A stretch of DNA of 64,000 nucleotides from a bacterium (GTDB lineage: Bacteria > Electryoneota > Electryoneia > Electryoneales > Electryoneaceae): contig JAHLLH010000003.1 in the NCBI GenBank assembly GCA_020444265.1, positions 124,001 to 188,000 of the forward strand, written 5' to 3'. The notes below the pieces were generated by a model that worked only from the letters and a program-made list of their open reading frames with translations, was not told where the DNA came from and did no database searches. Below, piece after piece: positions 47,128 to 61,322 of the stretch. A program made the position numbers and the translations under genes. How positions within the stretch are numbered: position 1 is the stretch's first letter; each line of letters starts with the position of its first letter.

Positions 47128-48918
47128 CTAGAAATCCCCGAAATCAATATCATCCATGCTGCTGATCGCACTGGATTGTTTCTGGCCACCATTGCTCGGG
47201 GCTGCCAATTTCCTTTGGGGGCGACGGGGGGCGTTGCGGACCTGTCCGGTCAAGGCGCGATTCGAGACGCCCTGGATCTTGAAGGCGGAGATCATCTCGC
47301 GTAGCTGACGGGCTTCGGCGGAAAGTTGTTCGGAGACTGATGCGCTCTCCTCGGCGTTTGCCGCAGTGTGCTGGGTGACATTCTCGATCTGGCCGAGGGC
47401 ATCGTTGACCTGTTCAATCGCCTGGGTCTGCTCGACCGAAGCCGTGGCGATCTCACGGATCACCGTTGAGACCTCGTTCACCGTGGTAACAATCTCACCC
47501 AGCGCATCGGACGTCGTATGCGCGATCTGGGCGCCGTTTTTGACACGATCCACGGTCCCCTTGATCAGATCGTTCGTTTCCTTCGCCGCCTTGGCGGATC
47601 GTTGCGCCAAGGTCCGCACCTCATCGGCGACAACAGCAAAGCCCTTGCCGTGCACCCCGGCTCGCGCCGCTTCAACTGCCGCATTCAGCGAAAGCAGGTT
47701 GGTCTGGAAAGCAATCTCCTCGATCACCTTGATGATGCGGCTGATCTGGCCGCTCGAATCCTCGATGGCTTCCATCGCCTCGACCATCTTGCCCATCTCG
47801 GCCGACCCGCTGTCGGCGTGTTGACGAGCATTTTCGGCCAACTGGCTCGCCTTTTCGGCACCTTCCGAATTGCTGCGATTCTGCGAGGTTACCTGGTCGA
47901 CGGTTGCTCGAATTTCTTCCAGTGAACTCGCCTGCTCGGTGGCTCCGCTGGAAAGCGAACCGCTGGTATCTGCCAGTTTCGCCGCACCCTGTTCCACTTC
48001 AACAATCGAATTGACAACCTGGCTCAGTGCTTCGTTCAAATGGTCGAGTGCAGGATTGAGAGCGTTGGGGATCAGGTGATGGTCACCAGAGTATTCCCCG
48101 AGAATACGCATGGTGAGGTCACGGTTTTTTACATGCTGGAGGACATCGATTGCTTCACGCAATGGGTTCAGGATCGAGTCGAGAAGCTCGTTCATCGCCT
48201 GAACCAGATCCCGGTACTCCTCTGGGAACTGGTGTAGATCCGAACGGCTGGTCAAGTCACCGATGGAGGCCGCTTCACGTATGGCACTACAGAGGTTCGA
48301 GATAAACTCGTTCCGTTCTTTCTCAAATTGACGCAGTTGCTCGCTGGCCTGTTGTTTCAGCGTGTGTTCATGACCCTGCATCACGATGGAGGCCTCGAAG
48401 CTCAGGCGATTACCGAGCTGTTCGGTGAAGACAAGCTGGTCTTCGGGAGCAATGTTTGCCTTTTTCAGGCAATCGAGGCAGAGGAATTGCAGGTAGCCGG
48501 AAAGTCCGGTAAACCACATCGGGTCAATGTCGTGCTGTGCGAGGGTGCTGCCGATTGAGGTGGCCCGAGTGACCGCAAGATTGTCAAGCGGACCGGTTAG
48601 TAAACCCTTCAGGTAACTCGCCGCAATAGAGTCAAGTTTGGTCGCCTGGGGGAGTTTCTCGACGGAGGCCCAGATCGCTGGACGGCTGCGAACCTTGTCA
48701 ATCAACGCACGTGCCATCTTCGGGATGGAGTCCGAAAGATGAGGACCTGCGGCAACGAGGTAGCCGAGGGTATCCGCGCGCAGACCGTGATAACGGACCT
48801 GTGTCTGCAAATCCCTGTCAGACAGGTCAACCGTACCTTCGCGGTCGGTGGGGAGGTGGGCAAAGGATCCGTTGTTCATCTCATCAGTCGTCGCGGATTC
48901 TTTCCGGTTCCAGAACAA
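47128..48918 (-). CDS. Soluble globin-coupled methyl-accepting chemotaxis protein
   Basis: This 596-aa protein has no membrane segment. The start is TTG 48918, seven bases after AGGAGG, because no ATG in this frame has a usable site. Residues ~30-190 match protoglobin sensor domains ([48 protein letters not shown]). The proximal heme His of HemAT (IASVHLRIG) aligns with Leu126 (IGSTLAQHD), and a His stands three positions later. The signalling tip [20 protein letters not shown] is canonical. The C-terminus ends MDDIDFGDF. It would signal to CheA. Heme binding is doubtful. Confidence 0.88.
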
Positions 48919-49116
48919 GGCACACCTCCTGCGGTTGGGACGGGCGCGAAGCCCCCATGACATTCCACCATCTTCGCAACTCCAATTCACAAAGTAGTGT
49001 ACGAAGGGTCGGAAGAAAAGAGGGAGGGAGGGTTCAAACTGATAAAGATGTAAATACGGCGAGAATCACGAGAGTTCGTTGTAAGTATTCGTTGATCGAC
49101 GCGAAAGGGAAAATAG

Positions 49117-51014: not shown

Positions 51015-52616
51015 ATGCCTGACATGGAGACACTGCACTGGGAGAAGGGGGAACCCTATGTGGCCGAGTTCGAATCTCTGAAGGATGTTTTACTCGAATT
51101 GGCACGAGAACGCTCGCTCGATTCCCTCTTCCACAAGCTGATCGAGTCGAACATGGCACGGCCCCATGTGGCCCATTTCGGTATCTGGTTAGTCGATCAC
51201 CAACCTGACGGCACTCCCTTTCTCAAGCTGGAAGCCTCCGGTGGACGGACCGCCACGGGCTTGGCAGACTGGCGTCACAAGGATGGGGACTATCGTACCG
51301 TCCCCTTCGATGAGCCGATCATCGGCGCGGCTGCAGCGGAACGTCACGATGTCCACAGCTTTCTCGAGGATGGCTGGGATCGTCCCGACTGGGCGGAAAA
51401 GGAAGGTATTCTCGCGGTCGGATCGACACCGATCATTCACCAGGATGAATTACTCGGCGTGCTGGCCGCCTTCATCGACCGGCCGATCTACGAGCAGATT
51501 CGTACCGATGGTCAGACCTGGCGACGGATTTTCACCGACCAGCTTGCCTCGACGATTGTCAACGTGCGTGCCTTTGAGGAAATCGATCACCTGCGCAGTC
51601 AGCTCGAACTCGAAAACGAGTACCTGCGCGAAGAGGTGAAAATCGCCCGCAAGTTCGGGCAGATTGTCGGCAGCAGCCGTGCCCTGGCACGTGTCCTTGA
51701 CCAGGTCGAACTGGTCGCCCCGACCGAGGCCTCCGTGCTCATCCTCGGCGAATCCGGCACAGGCAAGGAGTTGATTGCACAGGCGATCCACGAGAACAGC
51801 ACTCGTCAGAAAAAACCGCTGATCCGTGTCAACTGTCCTTCGGTCCCGCGTGAACTGTTCGAAAGCGAGTTTTTTGGTCACATACGGGGTGCTTTCACCG
51901 GCGCGGTCAAGGACAGGGAGGGCCGTTTCCAGCTCGCCAATGGCGGCACCCTCTTTCTCGACGAGATCGCCGAAATCCCCTTCGAATTACAATCGAAGTT
52001 GTTGCGTGTGCTCCAAGAGGGGACCTTGGAACGGATCGGGGAGGACCGGACCCGGAAAGTCGATGTGCGGATCATCGCCGCGACGAATCGTGACCTTAAA
52101 AAGGAGGTGGAGGCGGGACGGTTCCGTGAGGACCTCTTCTTCCGCCTGAGTGTCTTCCCAATCGAAGTGCCCGCCCTGAAAGACCGTCTCGAGGACATCC
52201 CCGACCTGACCCGTCACTTCATCGCCGACACCAGCCGACGCCTTGGCCTGCCGCAACCGACCCTGAAGCAACGGCACATCCTCCAGCTCCAATCCTACTC
52301 CTGGCCGGGGAACGTTCGCGAGCTGCAAAACGTGATCGAGCGCGCCGTCATCCTCGCCCGTGGCGAGACCTTGACCTTCGACTTCCTGCCCGACATCGGC
52401 CTGCCGAAACGAGTCCCCGTCCAGCCGGTCGAGGTAGCGAGTGACGAGGTGGTGACAGAGGAGGAGTGGAACAACCGCCAACGCGACAACATCCGTCACG
52501 CCCTCGAACTATCCGATTGGAAAATCCAGGGCCGCGACGGCGCCGCCGAACTGCTGGGCATCAAACCGACAACCCTGCGGTCACGGATGAAGGCGCTGGG
52601 GATTGAGAAGGGGTAG
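51015..52616 (+). CDS. Sigma-54-dependent activator with N-terminal GAF domain (NorR-like layout)
   Basis: This 533-aa protein has a GAF-like sensor at residues ~15-190 ([23 protein letters not shown]-type), a linker coiled coil, an AAA+ domain with Walker A GESGTGKE (residues 245-252), GAFTGA loop (residues 292-297), Walker [10 protein letters not shown] and R-finger region, and a C-terminal Fis-type helix-turn-helix ([20 protein letters not shown]). It remodels sigma-54 polymerase at enhancer-controlled promoters. The signal is unknown. The start is ATG 51015, with ATG 51024 possible. It is divergent from the CMD gene with shared regulatory DNA. Confidence 0.93.
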
Positions 52617-52910
52617 GGTGGGATCAGAGGGTTACCACAGCTCTCCGTTCGAGATAATCGAGCTGTACTTAGGTATACAGAAGAACTTAGGTCAATTATA
52701 TTTAAGGGATTTTGTATTCTCTATAGTTTTGTGTTAATTCTAGCTTTCTAGAAACTGTCACAATTTCTCTTTCGAATGTGTGATCTCGGCGAATCGAAGG
52801 TAACACATCGATAATGATTATTTGGATCAGGATAGGGATATCACGTACATTGAGGCCTTAGGAAAAGAACGCTGAGATTGAAAGCATAGTATCACGATTC
52901 GGAGAGAGAA
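52617..52910. other. AT-rich upstream flank of the cassette
   Basis: These 294 bp have no gene. A 7-bp inverted repeat ACAGCTC/GAGCTGT (52637-52666) may terminate the activator gene. Base composition falls sharply after about 52660. I see no tRNA, att-like direct repeat or integrase. Confidence 0.4.
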
Positions 52911-54440
52911 ATGGAAAGTGAAAAGAAATTTTCGGCTCTTCAAGTAAAACAATGGCTACCCGAGTGGGATGATTTAAAATGGAATCCAGCGGAACACCGT
53001 GCAACTCCTCCTAGCCACTTCTATCAGTTTAGTATGCCTGCGAGTTTGCTAAAACGACTTAGCGGAATCTATCCAAGGACAACTGATCGAAAGAGGTCTG
53101 CAGAGGATCTTGGGATTCAACGGCGTCATGATCCGCGTAGATCTGAGGAAATAAGTAGATTTGTAAAATATGGGTATCCATGGTCTGACCTTAGTGACGC
53201 AAAAAGGAATTCAAAGGATTTTTTAGATTTAAGACAACCTGGGTGGTTACCTACCGCGATAGTAATAAATATTTTGACATCCGGGGATAAAAGGAAGGGG
53301 AAATCAATTGATCCTTCTGACACGCTTTCTGTTGTAGACGAGAATAATAGAATTGCGTCAGTAAGTCTTCCAGAGTCTTATAAAGGTCTTGAATGGGTGC
53401 CAAAAGAAATTGCTCCCATTGAGGTAATTGATGGGCAGCATAGATTATGGGCTTTCAATGGAGATGAGCTGGAGGGTGAATATGAATTACCTGTAATTGC
53501 ATTTGTTGGGCTTGATCTAAGTTGGCAAGCTTATCTCTTTTACACAATCAATATCAAGCCGAAGAAAATCAATGCTAGTCTCGCTTTTGATCTTTATCCT
53601 TTATTGAGAACAGAGGATTGGCTGAATAAAACTGAAGGTCATGTGATTTACAGAGAAACAAGAGCCCAAGAACTTGTTGATCTACTATGGTCTCATGAAA
53701 ATAGTCCATGGTACCACAGGATCAACATGCTTGGTGAACCAGGTTACAAAGGACTACATGTTTCACAATCAGCATGGGTTAGATCGCTAGTCGCTTCTTT
53801 TATTAAAAGCTGGGAGGGTCGAGGAGTTCAGATAGGTGGTCTATTCGGGTCGAAAGTGGGCGAGCATCATGCTGTATTGCCATGGGCAAGGGCAGATCAG
53901 GCTGCATTTCTAATTGTCTTAGGTCAACAGCTAGAAAACGCCATTTCATCATCAAGTGGATCATGGGCAGATGATTTAAGAAGTATCGATGCTGATGGTC
54001 AACTAGATTTACAGGAACGAGACTTGGCATTTGTAAGTCAGTATTGTTTACTAAATCAAGATCAAGGTATAAGATCGATTCTTCATATTTATAATGACTA
54101 TTTCTATTTAATGGCTGATAACCTTCATTTAGATGGTTGGGGAAGTGAAAACCCAACAGTAAATGATATAGAGCAGTTGTCATATAGCATAGAGACACTA
54201 AAGAATGACAAAAGAATACTTAATTTCATTTGTGAGCTTTCTGAGTCTCTTGCAACATTTGACTGGAGGTCAGCTAGTGTCCCTGGATTAGCGCAGGATG
54301 AACGGACATACAAGTCCGCTTACCGCGGGAGTGGTGGATACAGAATGTTGCGGGAGCATGTATTGAGTCATCTATCAAGATCGAGTAAAGGAAAAGTTTC
54401 TGATACAGCAAAACAGATAATTGAAATATTAGGGTACTGA
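52911..54440 (+). CDS. DGQHR-domain protein (DndB/ParB-like)
   Basis: This 509-aa cytoplasmic protein has the signature IEVIDGQHRLWAF at residues 170-182, then LPVIAFVGLDLSWQAYLFYTINIKPKKIN, as in DGQHR-domain proteins. That family includes DndB of the phosphorothioation systems and is related to the ParB/Srx fold. The N-terminal ~100 residues and the C-terminal half are not recognised. The start ATG 52911 has GGAGAGAG upstream. It is the first gene of a three-gene unit, with the next ATG two bases after its stop. The role in DNA modification, its regulation, or nucleotide hydrolysis is inferred. Confidence 0.8.
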   Translation: MESEKKFSALQVKQWLPEWDDLKWNPAEHRATPPSHFYQFSMPASLLKRLSGIYPRTTDRKRSAEDLGIQRRHDPRRSEEISRFVKYGYPWSDLSDAKRNSKDFLDLRQPGWLPTAIVINILTSGDKRKGKSIDPSDTLSVVDENNRIASVSLPESYKGLEWVPKEIAPIEVIDGQHRLWAFNGDELEGEYELPVIAFVGLDLSWQAYLFYTINIKPKKINASLAFDLYPLLRTEDWLNKTEGHVIYRETRAQELVDLLWSHENSPWYHRINMLGEPGYKGLHVSQSAWVRSLVASFIKSWEGRGVQIGGLFGSKVGEHHAVLPWARADQAAFLIVLGQQLENAISSSSGSWADDLRSIDADGQLDLQERDLAFVSQYCLLNQDQGIRSILHIYNDYFYLMADNLHLDGWGSENPTVNDIEQLSYSIETLKNDKRILNFICELSESLATFDWRSASVPGLAQDERTYKSAYRGSGGYRMLREHVLSHLSRSSKGKVSDTAKQIIEILGY

Positions 54441-54442
54441 AT

Positions 54443-55810
54443 ATGCCAACGAGTTATGGGAATCTGTCGCAGTTGGGTAAAACGGCAATTCAAAATGCTG
54501 ATATAGACAGGGTAGAACCTTCCGCCACGCGACTACAGAATAACTGGCAGAATGGGAGCTGGTTGTCCTCTGGAAATATTTACGCGAAGGATGTGGTAGC
54601 AAAAATTGAGAATGGAAACCGTAGATATAATACTGGGAACCGAAAAGCTGATAGGCAATGGCAATTGTCTGAATACGTCGCAGCTTCGACTGTCTTACAT
54701 TGTATGGATGGTTGGAGTTATTTAGGAAAAGCCATCTTATCTGATTTAAGGAATGATGCAGGAACTTCTAGTCATTTAGCTTACTATGCTGAACTTCGAG
54801 CAGTTATGTCATTATTGGCTTCAGTTGGTATTGGTGTTTTTAATAAGTGTCATGCATCTTTAATAGGTCATGAAAAATGTGAGCATTTTAATGATGGACC
54901 TACTCATCGTTTCGCTTGGCTTGCGTTTGAAGAATGGGTGAAGTCAAATCAAGCTAAACAAATTCTATTTGATGTGTTGACAGTAGGTGGGAAGCCGGCC
55001 TCAATTTGGTTATCCCATAGTGGGCTTAGCTATGGTTTTCTTGCGCATAGATGGTTAAACCATTGGGGGATAGATATAAAACGATTTAGTGAGGATCGTG
55101 ATGCTCGAAATGAGTTTAGTTATAGACCTAATACGATGAATAGGATAAGCATCGGAGACGCTATTAGTAGCATAGAATCTCTTTCAAATTATTGGGAGTC
55201 ATGCGAGCCGTTTGGAGCATATAGCTTTGAGATGATAGACAGGTCTTTACTTAGAACAGCTATTCGGCATGTGTTCAAGGATGCAAATGGTCGAACTTAT
55301 AAGCAGGCGAAGAATATTTACAGGAAATATATAGAAAGAATGCTTCATGCTGTCAGTCCGACTGGGATGACTGAGCAGAGATGGTTGAACTTCTTTAGTG
55401 CCGAAGAGACAAGTTTCTATATTTATGATTTAGCCGCAAAAAATGAGCATCATTCAGCTCCTGGGTACCCAAAACAGATTATTTCTAGGGCGTTACTTCT
55501 TTTAAGGATAGCAACTGGTTTGACACGAAATTTGTTGTCACGAGTTCCGTCTTACAATAGAACAGAGTTGGAGTTCTGGTGGGGTAAAATTGGAGAAGCA
55601 AGAGGATTATGGAGGCCCGCGGAACCTCCGGAGGATTTTATTGATTTGTGGCAAGATGTGCAAGAAGCTATGGATCAGCTCAATGAGTGGAAGGAGAACA
55701 CTTCTGAGAATAAATCCGTATGGGATCTTTGGTCCTCGCCGGATTGTGCTAGAAGTTTACATTGTCTAAGCGGTACTGAGAGAATTGCCCTTTGGGGGTT
55801 GGGATTGTGA
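54443..55810 (+). CDS. Uncharacterised protein between DGQHR and methyltransferase genes
   Basis: This 455-aa protein is not recognised. It is mostly helical with conspicuous blocks STVLHCMDGWSYLGKAIL, HLAYYAELRAVMSLLASVGIG, HRFAWLAFEEWV, LSYGFLAHRWLNHWGID and LLRIATGLTRNLL. There is no signal peptide, membrane helix, Walker motif or obvious nuclease motif (no PD-(D/E)xK or HNH seen). It is locked into the operon: 2 bp after the DGQHR gene, with its stop overlapping the methyltransferase start (GTGA). It could be the effector or a specificity factor of the system. That is inference from context. Confidence 0.75.
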   Translation: MPTSYGNLSQLGKTAIQNADIDRVEPSATRLQNNWQNGSWLSSGNIYAKDVVAKIENGNRRYNTGNRKADRQWQLSEYVAASTVLHCMDGWSYLGKAILSDLRNDAGTSSHLAYYAELRAVMSLLASVGIGVFNKCHASLIGHEKCEHFNDGPTHRFAWLAFEEWVKSNQAKQILFDVLTVGGKPASIWLSHSGLSYGFLAHRWLNHWGIDIKRFSEDRDARNEFSYRPNTMNRISIGDAISSIESLSNYWESCEPFGAYSFEMIDRSLLRTAIRHVFKDANGRTYKQAKNIYRKYIERMLHAVSPTGMTEQRWLNFFSAEETSFYIYDLAAKNEHHSAPGYPKQIISRALLLLRIATGLTRNLLSRVPSYNRTELEFWWGKIGEARGLWRPAEPPEDFIDLWQDVQEAMDQLNEWKENTSENKSVWDLWSSPDCARSLHCLSGTERIALWGLGL

Positions 55811-56940
55811 AGTATATGGGATCAAAGCGTGCAATGCTCATGAATGGTTTGGGCAGTGTATTACGCGAGGAGTCGAAGAATACAACTCGTTTTGTAGACC
55901 TGTTTTCTGGATCTGGATCGGTAGCTTGGTTTGCAGCTACAGACCTAAAAATGGAAGTTTTATCACTAGATTTACAGAAGTATTCTTGCATCCTAGCAAA
56001 ATCTGTTATTGAAAGAACAAAGGCATTTGATAGTACTGCCACATATGAGAAATGGGCAGAAAGGGCTAAAATATTTCGTGAAGGAATTGCCATATGGAAA
56101 GAGGCAAAAAAGTTAGATCAAAGTGATATTTCAATTGACAAATGGCAAGCGGAAGCACAGGCTATTTGTTTGGAAGAGTATGAAGGAAACATTGTGTCAA
56201 GAGCCTATGGCGGTTTCTACTTCAGTCCGACACAAGCAATCACTTTTGATTCCCTATTACATACTATGCCGACGAACACAGATCAAATGTCGGAATGTTT
56301 AGCAGCATTGATAATATCTGCTAGTCAATGTGCTGCAGCGCCAGGCCATACGGCCCAAGCCTTTAAGGCGAATAGTACTGCAGGTCCCTTTTTAAAAGAA
56401 GCTTGGCATAGAGAACCTCTTAATTACGTATGTAGAGGACTAAACAAACTATCGGCATTGTATGCTTACAAAAAAGGTAAAGCAAAAGTTGGTGATGCAA
56501 ATCTTTATTCAAAAGAATTGAATAAAAGTGATTTAGTATTTATTGATCCTCCGTATTCTGGTGTTCACTACAGTAGGTTTTACCATGTACTTGAAACAAT
56601 AGCAAAAAGAAAGCGAGTCGCTGTTGCCGGTATCGGAAGGTATCCACCACTTGATCAGAGACCAAGGTCCGAATACAGCATGAGAAGTACTTCGGAAGGG
56701 GCAATTAGAAATCTGTTGTCTAATATATCGAGCCGAGGTGCAAAAGTCGTCATGACTTACCCAATGGATAAAAGTAGTAATGGATTATCTGGTCAACTAG
56801 TTGAGGAAATCGCCTCAGAGCATTTTAGTGTCGAAAAGAAATTAGTTAAGTCCCGCTTTAGTACCATGGGTGGTAATAGTAAAAATCGAGATGCGCGATC
56901 AAACACGGATGAGTTAATTATAGTATTAAATAAGCGGTAA
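55807..56940 (+). CDS. D12-class DNA adenine-N6 methyltransferase
   Basis: This 377-aa protein starts at GTG 55807, overlapping the upstream stop. MKYMGSKRAM is the usual N-terminal substrate/SAM entry of Dam-like enzymes. Motif I is FVDLFSGSGSVAWF (residues 29-42), and the catalytic motif IV is DPPY in VFIDPPYSGVHYSRF (residues 247-250). A middle segment with YGGFYFSPTQAITFDSLL is typical of the subgroup. It would methylate adenine N6 at an unknown site. No cognate restriction enzyme is recognisable nearby. Confidence 0.9.
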   Translation: MKYMGSKRAMLMNGLGSVLREESKNTTRFVDLFSGSGSVAWFAATDLKMEVLSLDLQKYSCILAKSVIERTKAFDSTATYEKWAERAKIFREGIAIWKEAKKLDQSDISIDKWQAEAQAICLEEYEGNIVSRAYGGFYFSPTQAITFDSLLHTMPTNTDQMSECLAALIISASQCAAAPGHTAQAFKANSTAGPFLKEAWHREPLNYVCRGLNKLSALYAYKKGKAKVGDANLYSKELNKSDLVFIDPPYSGVHYSRFYHVLETIAKRKRVAVAGIGRYPPLDQRPRSEYSMRSTSEGAIRNLLSNISSRGAKVVMTYPMDKSSNGLSGQLVEEIASEHFSVEKKLVKSRFSTMGGNSKNRDARSNTDELIIVLNKR

Positions 56941-57039: not shown

Positions 57040-60000
57040 CTAACTAATCGGCCCAGCCTCCACCTTCTTCCTCTCGCCCTTCCGCTCGAACAACGCATAC
57101 ACCACCGGCACCAGTACGAGGGTAATCAGGGTGGAGCTGGTGAGGCCGCCGATGACGACTCGCGCTAAGGGGGCTTGGGTTTCGCCGCCTTCGCCGAGGC
57201 CGAAGGAGAGGGGGAGCAGGCCGAGGATAGTCGTCAGGGTGGTCATCAGGATGGGGCGGAGTCGTCGCTGGCCCGCCAGTTCAATCGCCTCGTAGAGGGG
57301 CATGCCGTCACGCCGTCGCAGCAGGTTGGTGTAGTCCACCAGCAGGATGGCGTTGTTGACGATGATCCCGCCGAGCATAATGCACCCGATGTAGGCGTTT
57401 AAACTGAAACTGGTGTCGGTCAGGATCATGGTGAGCACGACCCCGATCACCGCCATCGGGACGGCAAACAACACCACCAGCGGGTGACGGAAACTTTCAA
57501 ACTGGCCCGCCATCACCATGTAAACCAGCACAATCGCGAGGATCAGGCCGAGCATCAGCTCGCTGAAGGCTTCCTGCTGCTCCTCATAATCCCCGCCGAT
57601 GATGATCGCGAAATCCTTCGGAACAGGAATGCCGCGCAGCTTCTCACGGACATCGGTAACGACCGACCCCATGTCACGGCCCGTGAAGTTGGCGTAGACA
57701 AAAACCGTCCGCTCCTGGTCCTTCCGTTCGATCCGGACCGGGCCCTCCATCTGGGCGGTCTGGACAACATTCCGCAGCACGATTTGCTGACCACGGTCAT
57801 TGGTCACGGTCAAGTCGAGCAGGTTGCGCAGGTTTTGACGGTCCTCTTCGGACAGGCGCACCAGAATACGGTACTCCTTCCCGCCCTCGCGGAAATTGGA
57901 GGCGTAGGTGCCGCCGATGGCGGTTTGCAGCGCTTCACCGATACGCGCGATGCTGAGGCCCAGGTCGGCCGCTTTGGCGCGGTCGATACGGATCACCTGC
58001 TCGGGTCGTCCCTCCTCACGGCTGATCCGTGTGTCGGTAATCCCTTCGACCTGTTTGACCGCCTCGTCCACCTTCATCGCCAGTTCACGGCTGGTTTCAA
58101 GGTTATAGCCGCGCACTTCGAGGGTCACACTTTCGCCACCGCCGCCAGACATCATCCGCAGCAGCCAGAAGCCCTGGCCGGGTCGGACACGGATGGTTGC
58201 TCCGGGCAGTTTGGAGAGCACCGGGCGTAGCGCATTGGCCACCTCCTCGCTGCTGCGAATCCGTTTCGCCAGCGGCACGAGGGTCAGACGCATGTCCGCC
58301 GTATGCCCACCCGCCGCACGCCATCCGCCACCGCCGACACTGACCAATAGCGATTCGAGTTCCGGGACTTGCTCGCTGATGATCCGTTCCACGTCGCGGG
58401 TTAGACGGTCCATCACCTCGAGGCGAGTTCCGACCGCCATCTCGACATCGACTCGTACCTCGCCCTCGTCGGATGCAGGCATGAAATCGACCCCCATGAA
58501 GCGGATCAGGAAGATGGACAGAACGAAGAGGGCAACCGTTCCGGCACCAATCCAACGTTTGTGCCCCAGCGCCCAACGAAGCAGCAGGGCATACCGCCCT
58601 TCCACCGCTCGGAAGGAGCGTTCACTCGCCTCGTAAATCCGTCCGAAAAGCTTGCCCGAACCGCTGTGTTTGTCGCTGCGATAATGCAGGAAACGGCTGG
58701 ACAACATCGGCACCAGGGTCAGCGCCACAATCAGCGAACAGAGCAGGGAAAAGGCGACCACATAGGCGAGCTGCTGGAAGTAGATGCCCGACAGGCCGCG
58801 CATGAAGACGACGGGGAGGAAGACGACAAGCGTGGTGGTTGTCGAAGCGATAATTGCGCTGCCCACTTCGGAGGTGCCAAGCAGGGCCGCTTCAACCGCA
58901 CTCTTGCCCGATTCACGCAGACGATAGATGTTTTCGAGCACCACGATGGAGCTGTCCACCAGCATCCCGATGCCGAGCGCAAGACCACCGAAGGTCATCA
59001 GGTTGAGGGTGAAGCCGCCGAAATAGATCAGGCCGAAAGTGGCGATAATCGAGACCGGGATCGCCGTGGCGATGATCGCCGTCGAGGAGACATTGCGCAG
59101 GAAGAGGAAGAGGATGAGGACGGCGAGGATGCCGCCGACCAGCGTCGAACGGCCCACGTTATTGATCGAGTTGCGGATGTAAACCGAGGTGTCACGGATC
59201 GGGACCATGCGAATCTGCGGGATGTCCTGATTGATCCGTTCCATTTCCTCCTTGACCGCGTCCACCACATCGACCGTATTCGCGCCCGACTGCTTGTTGA
59301 TCGACAAGCGAACACTCGGCTCGCCATCGACACGTACCAGCCTGGTGATCTCCTGCCAGGAGTCCTCGACGGTCGCAAAGTCGGAAATGTGGATGGGGGC
59401 ACCGTTCCGCACCGCGACCACGGTTGAACGGATTTCATCGAGGTTGTGGTACTCGCCCTGGGTGCGTACGAGGATTTCAAAGTTGCCAGTTTTGTAGGTG
59501 CCTGCCGGGATGTTGCGGTTTTCGTTTCGCAAGGCGCTGAGAATACCGCTGGTGGAAAGACCGAGGGCCTTCACCTTGTCGGCATCGAGGTTGACATGGA
59601 TCTCGCGGCTCAGTCCGCCCCAAATGTCTACGGCAGCAACACCATTGACTCGCTCCAGGCGGTATTTCACCTGGTCGTCGATGATTTGGCGAAGGTCGAG
59701 CGGGTTGAGGTCGCTGGCGACACCGAGGATGGCGACGGGAAACTGCGAGAGGTCAAACTTGCGGATCATCGGACGGTCGATGTCCTCGGGCAGACGGCCC
59801 AGAACACGGTCGATCCGGTCACGGATATCGTTCGCCGCCGCTTCGAGGTCATAGCCCCAGGTGAAGGAGACACGCACGGAGCTGTTGCCTTCGGTCGAGG
59901 TCGAGGTGATCTCCTCAACCCCCTGAACCGCCGCAATGGCCTCCTCGATGGGACGAGTGACCAGCTCCTCCATCTCTTCCGGGCCAACGTTCTCGTAGCT

Positions 60001-60147
60001 GGTGGAAACAGAAATTGTCGGGAAGGAGATCTCCGGCATCAAGTCGATGGAAAGGCGGAAGAAGGATACCACACCGACGACGATGACGATCAGGTAAACC
60101 ATCGTCGTCAGAATCGGCCGTTTCACCGGCCCCTGGGCGAGATTCAT
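57040..60147 (-). CDS. RND efflux transporter, HAE1 family (AcrB-like)
   Basis: This 1035-aa inner-membrane transporter has the expected duplicated layout: 12 helices and two large periplasmic loops. It starts [39 protein letters not shown] is the porter-domain signature. The proton-relay helix 4 reads [15 protein letters not shown], with the first Asp kept and the second position Ser. It extrudes hydrophobic compounds with an adaptor and a TolC-type channel. The channel gene is not in the window. The ATG overlaps the adaptor stop by 4 bp. Confidence 0.94.
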
Positions 60148-61322
60148 CGGGTTGTCTCCCCGCTCCCCCCGTTGCTGTCAGCCTGCGGCAGCAGGATGGC
60201 ACCACCATCATCGAGCAGATGCTGCCCGAGGGTGATTACCGCGCCGCTGAGGGTCGCTGGTTCGAGCACCTCGATTACCTCAGCAGATTGAATCCCGGGC
60301 ACGATCGCGACCCATTTCGCAGTGGGGGACTCGCCCTCTGCCACAAGGAAGATGCCGTCGATCCCATCCCTGCGAACCATCGCCTTGCGTGGCACCAGCA
60401 GGGCATTTTCCTTCGCCTCCAGTACCACATGAATCTTGGCGAACATGCCCGGCTTCAGTTCGAGGTCGGTGTTGGGGACGATCACTTCCATCTCGGCGAC
60501 ACGTGATTCCTCACGCAACATCGGCGCGATCCGGCTGACGGTGCCCGCGAAGGTCCGTCCCGGCCAGGCATCCACACTCACTTCTGCCTGCTGCCCGACT
60601 TGGATTTTGCCGTAATCCCGTTCAATGATCGAACTGCGTACGTAAACAGTATCAATTCCCAGAACCGAAGCGACCGCCGAGTTGACATTCAGCAGCGCGC
60701 CCTCGTCCACCAGACGCTCCCCGATATACCCCGGTTCGCTGGCACGCAGGACGGTGTACTGCAAACGAATGCGAGCTGATTCGAGCGCCGCTTCTCGTTG
60801 CTGGACCTGCGCTTCTGCGACAGCGACTCGTGCTTGCTGGGCATCGAAACGAGACTGAGCGGTATCCATATCCGAGGAGGAAGCCAAGCCCTGGTCACGC
60901 AAGGACTGGGCACGTTCAAACTCCTTCCGCGCCAGCTCGAGCTGAGCTTTCGCTTCGTTGAGCGAAGCGCGTGCGATCTTGAGGTTGGCATCGGCTTCGA
61001 TCACCGTCTGCTGGTATTCGGCATCGTCGATACGAGCGATGACCTCGTTACGGTCAACATAGTCGCCAATGCGACGGTCAAAGCGGGTGACTCTTCCCGG
61101 TACCTTCGGGGCGACCAGGTAGCGGTAGAGGGGATGGATCGATCCGGTGAACAAACGGATATCCTCAATCGGTCCTGCATGGACCGAATCAACCTCGACC
61201 GCCACTCCAGGTCGTCCATACCCATACCCGCCGCCCTCCCCCGGGCGGACCATCTCCACAATCCGCCACACGAGCAACGCGAGAAACACCACCCCCGCAA
61301 CCAGCCAGAAATGTTTCTTCAT
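60144..61322 (-). CDS. RND efflux periplasmic adaptor (membrane fusion protein)
   Basis: This 392-aa protein has one N-terminal membrane helix (FWLVAGVVFLALLVWRIV), a lipoyl-type half-motif (VAPKVPGRVTRFDRRIGDYVDRNEVIARID), a long helical hairpin (about residues 85-170), a beta-barrel domain (VGQQAEVSVDAWPGRTFAGTVSRIAP) and a membrane-proximal domain. It connects the RND pump to the outer-membrane channel. It is co-transcribed with the pump gene. Confidence 0.93.
   Translation of the reverse strand: MKKHFWLVAGVVFLALLVWRIVEMVRPGEGGGYGYGRPGVAVEVDSVHAGPIEDIRLFTGSIHPLYRYLVAPKVPGRVTRFDRRIGDYVDRNEVIARIDDAEYQQTVIEADANLKIARASLNEAKAQLELARKEFERAQSLRDQGLASSSDMDTAQSRFDAQQARVAVAEAQVQQREAALESARIRLQYTVLRASEPGYIGERLVDEGALLNVNSAVASVLGIDTVYVRSSIIERDYGKIQVGQQAEVSVDAWPGRTFAGTVSRIAPMLREESRVAEMEVIVPNTDLELKPGMFAKIHVVLEAKENALLVPRKAMVRRDGIDGIFLVAEGESPTAKWVAIVPGIQSAEVIEVLEPATLSGAVITLGQHLLDDGGAILLPQADSNGGSGETTR

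Follow-up and report, generated by a model that had tools for sequence, protein, structure and literature searches.

Several immune systems that tell self from foreign DNA by a chemical mark employ related NTPases. SspE and DndI are ParB-fold NTPases that read such a mark (PMC9646914, PMC11662687), and SspE requires for GTP hydrolysis a D-G-Q-Q-R motif that is equivalent to the DGQHR motif of the proteins considered here (PMC9646914). DndB, another relative, has been described as a regulator that limits phosphorothioation (PT) of DNA (PMC10853773). Here we analyse a three-gene cassette in a 64,000-nucleotide stretch (hereafter the window) of contig JAHLLH010000003.1 from a bacterium of the Electryoneaceae, which encodes a DGQHR-domain protein, a protein called MID that matches no known family, and an adenine methyltransferase. 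Sequence comparisons establish that DGQHR and MID form an obligate, co-evolving and horizontally dispersed pair tied to a self-DNA-modification enzyme, and that this modification partner has been exchanged several times between unrelated enzyme families. We consider it probable, though well short of certain, that the cassette is an immune system resembling restriction-modification (R-M), in which a DGQHR-MID effector acts on foreign DNA and an exchangeable DNA mark protects self. The main features are as follows.

52911..54440, + strand: gene 1, DGQHR-domain protein (DndB/DpdB-related, predicted ParB/Srx-type NTP-binding fold), 509 amino acids
53430..53444, + strand: DGQHR motif of gene 1 (D174-R178), invariant in an alignment of 57 members
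54443..55810, + strand: gene 2, MID, 455 amino acids, nearly all-helical in its model, no known family matched
55106..55123, + strand: MID motif R222-N-x-x-S-Y227, candidate active or binding site (alignment of 58 members)
55807..56940, + strand: gene 3, D12-class N6-adenine DNA methyltransferase, 377 amino acids from GTG 55807
56545..56556, + strand: DPPY catalytic motif IV of the methyltransferase, invariant

The locus set comprises 72 fetched loci that hold the DGQHR subfamily together with MID, from many bacterial phyla and the archaeon Methanoregula. An alignment scan with DGQHR yielded 58 loci from approximately 85,000 species genomes and eight from viral contigs, and a six-frame profile search placed MID behind DGQHR in every case except where the contig stops or the genes are remnants. 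MID lies directly behind DGQHR in 56 of the 58 loci measured, with spacings of -32 to +13 nt; one exception (L035) reflects a miscalled start, the genes being adjacent in six frames, and in the other (L068) a gene stands between the two. Searches seeded with the other genes lead back to the same arrangement, since DGQHR is directly upstream in all eight viral-contig loci found with MID, and all eight close members of the window-type methyltransferase (at least 39% identity) lie directly behind DGQHR-MID. Of 385 alphaproteobacterial genomes sampled, two carry MID, one being the seed, and the DGQHR subfamily is present in those two and no others; in the class to which Pontibacter (L018) belongs, a sample of 394 genomes yielded one new match. 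A search for the window-type methyltransferase in alphaproteobacteria returned no match, but was run without a positive control, and we draw no rate from it. The cassette is rare (about 0.3% of sampled genomes) and widely scattered. It was not found in the phage records searched, and the loci include no enterobacterial carrier, which may explain its escape from E. coli-centred screens. Because this set and order of three genes recurs in dozens of unrelated genomes, the arrangement is not a product of chance. An initial annotation of the window had held that the idea of a system would fail if homologues of the three genes never occurred together; their order is in fact kept across phyla.

Two carriers are plasmids, as tblastn searches of plasmids with MID found the gene order DGQHR, MID, DNA adenine methylase on Rhizobium tumorigenes pRt932 and on Zymomonas pZZM405. 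On pZZM405 (L003, NC_013788.1), the genes immediately downstream encode a DarT/DarG-like pair, with DUF4433 and macro-domain proteins. On pRt932, a 503-amino-acid gene without a Pfam match stands behind the trio (L002:10493-12004), beside Mu/TniB transposition genes.

A DNA methyltransferase adjoins the pair in 65 of the 72 loci, and its type varies: window-type D12 in 45, Dam/DpnM-like in 15 (downstream, convergent or upstream), beta-class in three (upstream) and MT-A70 in two. The remaining seven loci consist of two in Dnd/Pbe islands, one at a contig end beside a DndA-like gene, two with no modification module visible and two cut off by the contig edge. Pairwise distances correlate far more closely between DGQHR and MID (0.89) than between DGQHR and the methyltransferase (0.59), and the partial correlations are 0.83 versus 0.21. 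On the DGQHR tree the partner has changed at least 13 times (15-21 for shuffled labels, mean 19.6), and at least eight of these changes are between the window type and the Dam type. Given these distance correlations and partner changes, DGQHR-MID is the evolutionary core to which a marking enzyme has been recruited. The three-gene system originally proposed recurs as a trio, and is refined to a constant DGQHR-MID core with a methyltransferase that is exchangeable among at least four enzyme groups. In one locus where the pair has no visible methyltransferase, genes for a reverse transcriptase (retron-like by PADLOC) and a PRTase-CE protein lie directly upstream (L028:790-3395).

Gene 1 exceeds the cut-off of the NCBIfam model TIGR03187 for DGQHR proteins (70.8 bits versus 58.85, E 1.5e-19), and falls just under that of Pfam DndB (PF14072; 28.9 bits versus 29.1, E 8e-7). 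It is well below the equivalog cut-offs for the dnd-associated DGQHR protein (TIGR04172; 58 bits versus 450) and for DpdB (22.8 bits versus 300), such that by these models it is related to, yet outside, DndB and DpdB. The AlphaFold2 model (pLDDT 89.5) has ParB N-domains, some of them nucleotide-bound, as its best structural matches, with moderate Z scores of 6.3-5.9 over 95-122 aligned residues (root-mean-square deviation 2.7-5.2) against 3.6 for unrelated structures; SspE (Z 3.4) and BrxU (Z 2.9) match more weakly. On this model, the N-terminal domain adopts a ParB/Srx NTP-binding fold. A Foldseek comparison of the gene 1 model with the PDB gave no significant match, and PDB sequence profile searches with gene 1 and MID gave nothing. 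Neither protein carries a C-terminal HNH (DUF1524) nuclease domain by Pfam or NCBIfam, and neither matches a 2023 PADLOC model up to E 1. Two relatives are unusual in composition. An N-terminal DGQHR fragment continues in frame into C-terminal sequence resembling HsdS, next to a type I restriction gene (L058:9992-10669), and is either a remnant or a recombination product. A second DGQHR/DndB-type protein, of 790 amino acids and with a weak Hjc-like N-terminal match, lies directly behind a Dam-type methyltransferase at L040:13654-16026.

MID has no significant match to any family in Pfam, NCBIfam, PADLOC or PHROGs, and its 58 relatives, when scanned singly, have no Pfam family in common. The possibility raised at the outset that the middle gene belongs to a housekeeping family is therefore not borne out. 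Its AlphaFold2 model is confident (pLDDT 92; predicted template modelling score, pTM, 0.93) and nearly all-helical; Foldseek found no significant match for it in the PDB or among viral models, and the searches showed no solved relative. Across 58 aligned members, Y114, Y115, T154, H155, D211, R222, S226, Y227 and R349 are invariant and H111, R119 and N223 nearly so, a conserved polar set that is a candidate active or binding site. The only non-generic structural matches are weak ones to the ROQ region of Roquin-2 (Z 5.1) and to Csm6 (Z 4.5). These matches, together with the order of the motifs (YYA..., TH, RNxxSY), prompted an assignment of MID to HEPN that further comparisons did not support: profile comparison with two HEPN sets gave nothing, Pfam HEPN models match none of the 58 members, and the MID motif carries Y where the HEPN R-x4-6-H active site has H. 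We keep a divergent HEPN-like protein only as a hypothesis.

Gene 3 is best classified as a D12-class N6-adenine DNA methyltransferase because it exceeds the cut-off for Pfam MethyltransfD12 (PF02086; 60.9 bits versus 22, E 2e-16) and carries the invariant DPPY motif; it also matches PADLOC MTase_II (E 6e-26). The mechanical open reading frame begins at TTG 55792. The real start is likely GTG 55807, given the GTGA overlap with the gene 2 stop and the sequence 'MKYMGSK', which is the conserved start in 30 aligned relatives.

By analogy with SspE and DndI, we envisage that the methyltransferase, or another marking module, would mark the host copies of a short site that probably contains GATC. 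The DGQHR protein, as a ParB-like NTPase, would scan the DNA, and nucleotide binding or hydrolysis would lead to its release wherever the site is marked. Invading DNA without the mark would keep the DGQHR-MID complex engaged, and MID or the ParB-like domain might then nick or cleave the DNA. If MID is instead a divergent HEPN-like protein, RNA cleavage could stop the cell, and the outcome would be abortive infection. The role of MID as effector is the least certain of these steps.

An immune function is supported by the occurrence of the trio on plasmids and in multiple phyla, the reciprocal seeding, the co-evolution of the pair, the exchange of partners, the methyltransferase in 65 of 72 loci and the invariant DGQHR motif on a ParB fold. 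It is also supported by an excess of defence-like neighbours, in that first neighbours match 78 PADLOC families versus five for genes of these loci at distances above 6.5 kb (families are counted here, not proteins). Several points weigh on the other side. No recognisable nuclease domain is present in the DGQHR protein or MID. In L016 and L028 no modification module adjoins the pair, so that absence of the mark need not be lethal. Examples from Dnd/Pbe islands are few, and each such island is a complete system in its own right. Moreover, the neighbours of many loci are ordinary genes and not other defence genes; of the two features proposed at the outset for testing, a kept order and a location in defence islands, the first stands and the second is obvious for only part of the loci. 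The methylome of Zymomonas mobilis ZM4, in which GATC is not methylated (PMC8432527), was first taken as evidence against an active Dam-type partner. It was dropped because plasmids pZZM401-405 originate from strain CP4 (PMC5930841), and thus, despite the ZM4 label on record NC_013788.1, that methylome says nothing about the pZZM405 cassette. With these points considered, the reading best supported by the sequence evidence is the one suggested in the initial annotation, a system for DNA modification or against phage that matches none of the named ones.

The identity of the recognised site can be approached from the exchanged partners. The Dam-type enzymes have DpnM (E 2.5e-54) and E. coli Dam as their nearest relatives and possess the same NGLxRxN...FNVPxG region; DpnM and E. 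coli Dam methylate GATC. Where the pair has no adjacent methyltransferase, a Dam/DpnM-like enzyme is encoded elsewhere in four of five such genomes. In one locus (L057:588-1918), genes for an MT-A70 methyltransferase and a BglII-family endonuclease lie directly upstream of a frameshifted DGQHR gene and an intact MID gene. Known BglII-family members cut GATC-containing sites, and no close solved relative of this enzyme was found, so that its site is judged solely by family. In haloarchaea, Dnd-Pbe modifies DNA at G(PS)ATC (PMC6459918). These clues, each of them weak and all drawn from partners other than the window-type and beta-class enzymes, concur that the recognised site, where it can be guessed, probably contains GATC. 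A bolder proposal, which we would put forward only tentatively and consider rather unlikely, is that DGQHR-MID acts as a plug-in immune effector whose target is a single DNA word, either GATC or a site that includes it, and that it works with whatever chemistry is used to mark this word. Usable marks would then include N6-methyladenine (m6A) from D12, Dam or MT-A70 enzymes or from a resident host Dam, as well as phosphorothioate, and the interface would be the mark rather than a cognate enzyme.

Among the alternatives to an R-M-like system, the one that survives best is an epigenetic or DNA-modification cassette, in which DGQHR and MID would be auxiliary or regulatory subunits that control or extend modification without attacking foreign DNA. 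The kinship of DGQHR to DndB and DpdB, which both come from modification modules, the regulatory role described for DndB, the part that DpdB plays in the insertion of 7-deazaguanine and the lack of a recognised nuclease domain in the pair all fit this idea. However, swapping among unrelated enzymes (m6A enzymes of several families and possibly PT) would be odd for a dedicated subunit, it is the pair that co-evolves tightly and the methyltransferase that is loose, and each methyltransferase is a complete enzyme of a kind able to act by itself. We therefore judge it unlikely. More doubtful is a mark-licensed effector similar to SspE, unlike classical R-M, in which the pair would be active only with the mark on self DNA and harmless without it. 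Both SspE, which has the same NTPase fold, and the Pbe module need the mark for activity (PMC9646914, PMC6459918), and L016 and L028 lack an adjacent methyltransferase. Yet DndI, which shares the fold, acts against unmarked DNA and is harmful to cells without the mark (PMC11662687), and a near-constant adjoining marking enzyme fits both the R-M-like and the licensed model. It is very improbable that the trio serves mainly for addiction, stabilising mobile elements by post-segregational killing: it does occur on plasmids and beside recombinases, integrases or transposases in several loci, but most loci are chromosomal fragments, and stabilisation would be compatible with, and secondary to, R-M behaviour. 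That the genes are unrelated and simply share an AT-rich segment gained by horizontal transfer, for which only the low GC content speaks, is refuted by an order conserved in dozens of loci across phyla and by the convergence of reciprocal seeding, and its likelihood is negligible.

The window itself is consistent with arrival of the cassette by horizontal transfer. As first annotated, the three genes at 52911-56940 are tightly coupled, with 2 nt between genes 1 and 2 and a GTGA overlap between genes 2 and 3 (55807-55810), and they form an AT-rich insert (39-42% GC across 53-57 kb versus 54-60% on either side); the DGQHR and methyltransferase identities given then agree with the model matches above. 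The trio is flanked by an NtrC-type sigma-54 activator (51015-52616) and by an RND efflux operon on the opposite strand (57040-61322). The remaining feature precedes gene 1.

52617..52910, + strand: AT-rich intergenic region upstream of gene 1, expected location of the promoter

A promoter consensus scan of this region did no better than with shuffled sequences. A related genome retains the RND operon (68% identity) and has different sequence beyond it, and MID was not found in the other 38 genomes of the phylum searched; with the low GC content, this pattern fits horizontal acquisition. No convincing flanking repeats were found that would mark mobile-element boundaries around the insert, the window holds no tRNA, and no empty insertion site can be shown because the flanking genes are not syntenic in related genomes. 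No recognised defence gene adjoins the trio, and the flanking PADLOC matches involve only the shared AAA domain of the activator; the first description had likewise recognised no restriction enzyme and no dnd, ssp or BREX gene nearby. Further upstream, at 47128-48990, the window encodes a chemotaxis protein with an N-terminal protoglobin domain (a globin-coupled sensor).

If the R-M-like reading is true, the cassette would add a compact three-gene modification-based immune system whose effector belongs to no known family, and in which a constant sensor/effector pair has repeatedly changed its marking enzyme. It would also provide a minimal context for work on the DGQHR/DndB branch of ParB-like NTPases, a branch with a disputed role even within Dnd systems. 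Furthermore, it becomes testable whether a single restriction module can accept chemically different marks at one DNA word, and Z. mobilis CP4, which belongs to a tractable laboratory species, is a natural carrier. Such a system is not described in the 2023 PADLOC models, in NCBIfam 2026 or in the literature searched, which did not extend to preprints and most subscription papers.

On comparison with named systems, the DGQHR-MID pair falls into none of the DndB, Dpd, SspE/DndI/GmrSD or PADLOC groups, in agreement with the initial annotation. Type II R-M systems are similar in being compact, mobile and phylogenetically scattered operons, with a solitary-type adenine methyltransferase linked to one or more genes that may act on unmarked DNA; however, the trio has no recognisable restriction endonuclease, and keeps a constant ParB-like NTPase and MID while the methyltransferase is exchanged. 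The DndB/DGQHR proteins of Dnd phosphorothioation (PF14072, TIGR03187, TIGR04172) have the same domain and DGQHR motif, and two or three relatives of gene 1 lie in or next to Dnd/Pbe islands, but gene 1 is longer, has MID as an obligate partner and usually occurs without dnd genes. SspE, DndI and GmrSD/BrxU (DUF262 + HNH) likewise possess a ParB/Srx-type NTPase domain, in which a DGQxR motif is present and which could recognise marks on DNA, whereas the trio has no HNH domain, its second component is a separate helical protein, and its mark would usually be a methyl group from a dedicated enzyme. Dpd systems also place a DGQHR NTPase (DpdB) within a DNA-modification locus, yet no other dpd gene stands beside the trio. 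The PbeABCD/CxC-DndE module occurs with either PT or methyltransferases, but no Pbe protein is DGQHR or MID, and the pair is an additional element in those islands. Judging from sequence, Dnd, Pbe, Ssp, Dpd and GmrSD come closest among published themes, and what appears to be the new element among modification-linked immune systems is the putative effector protein MID.

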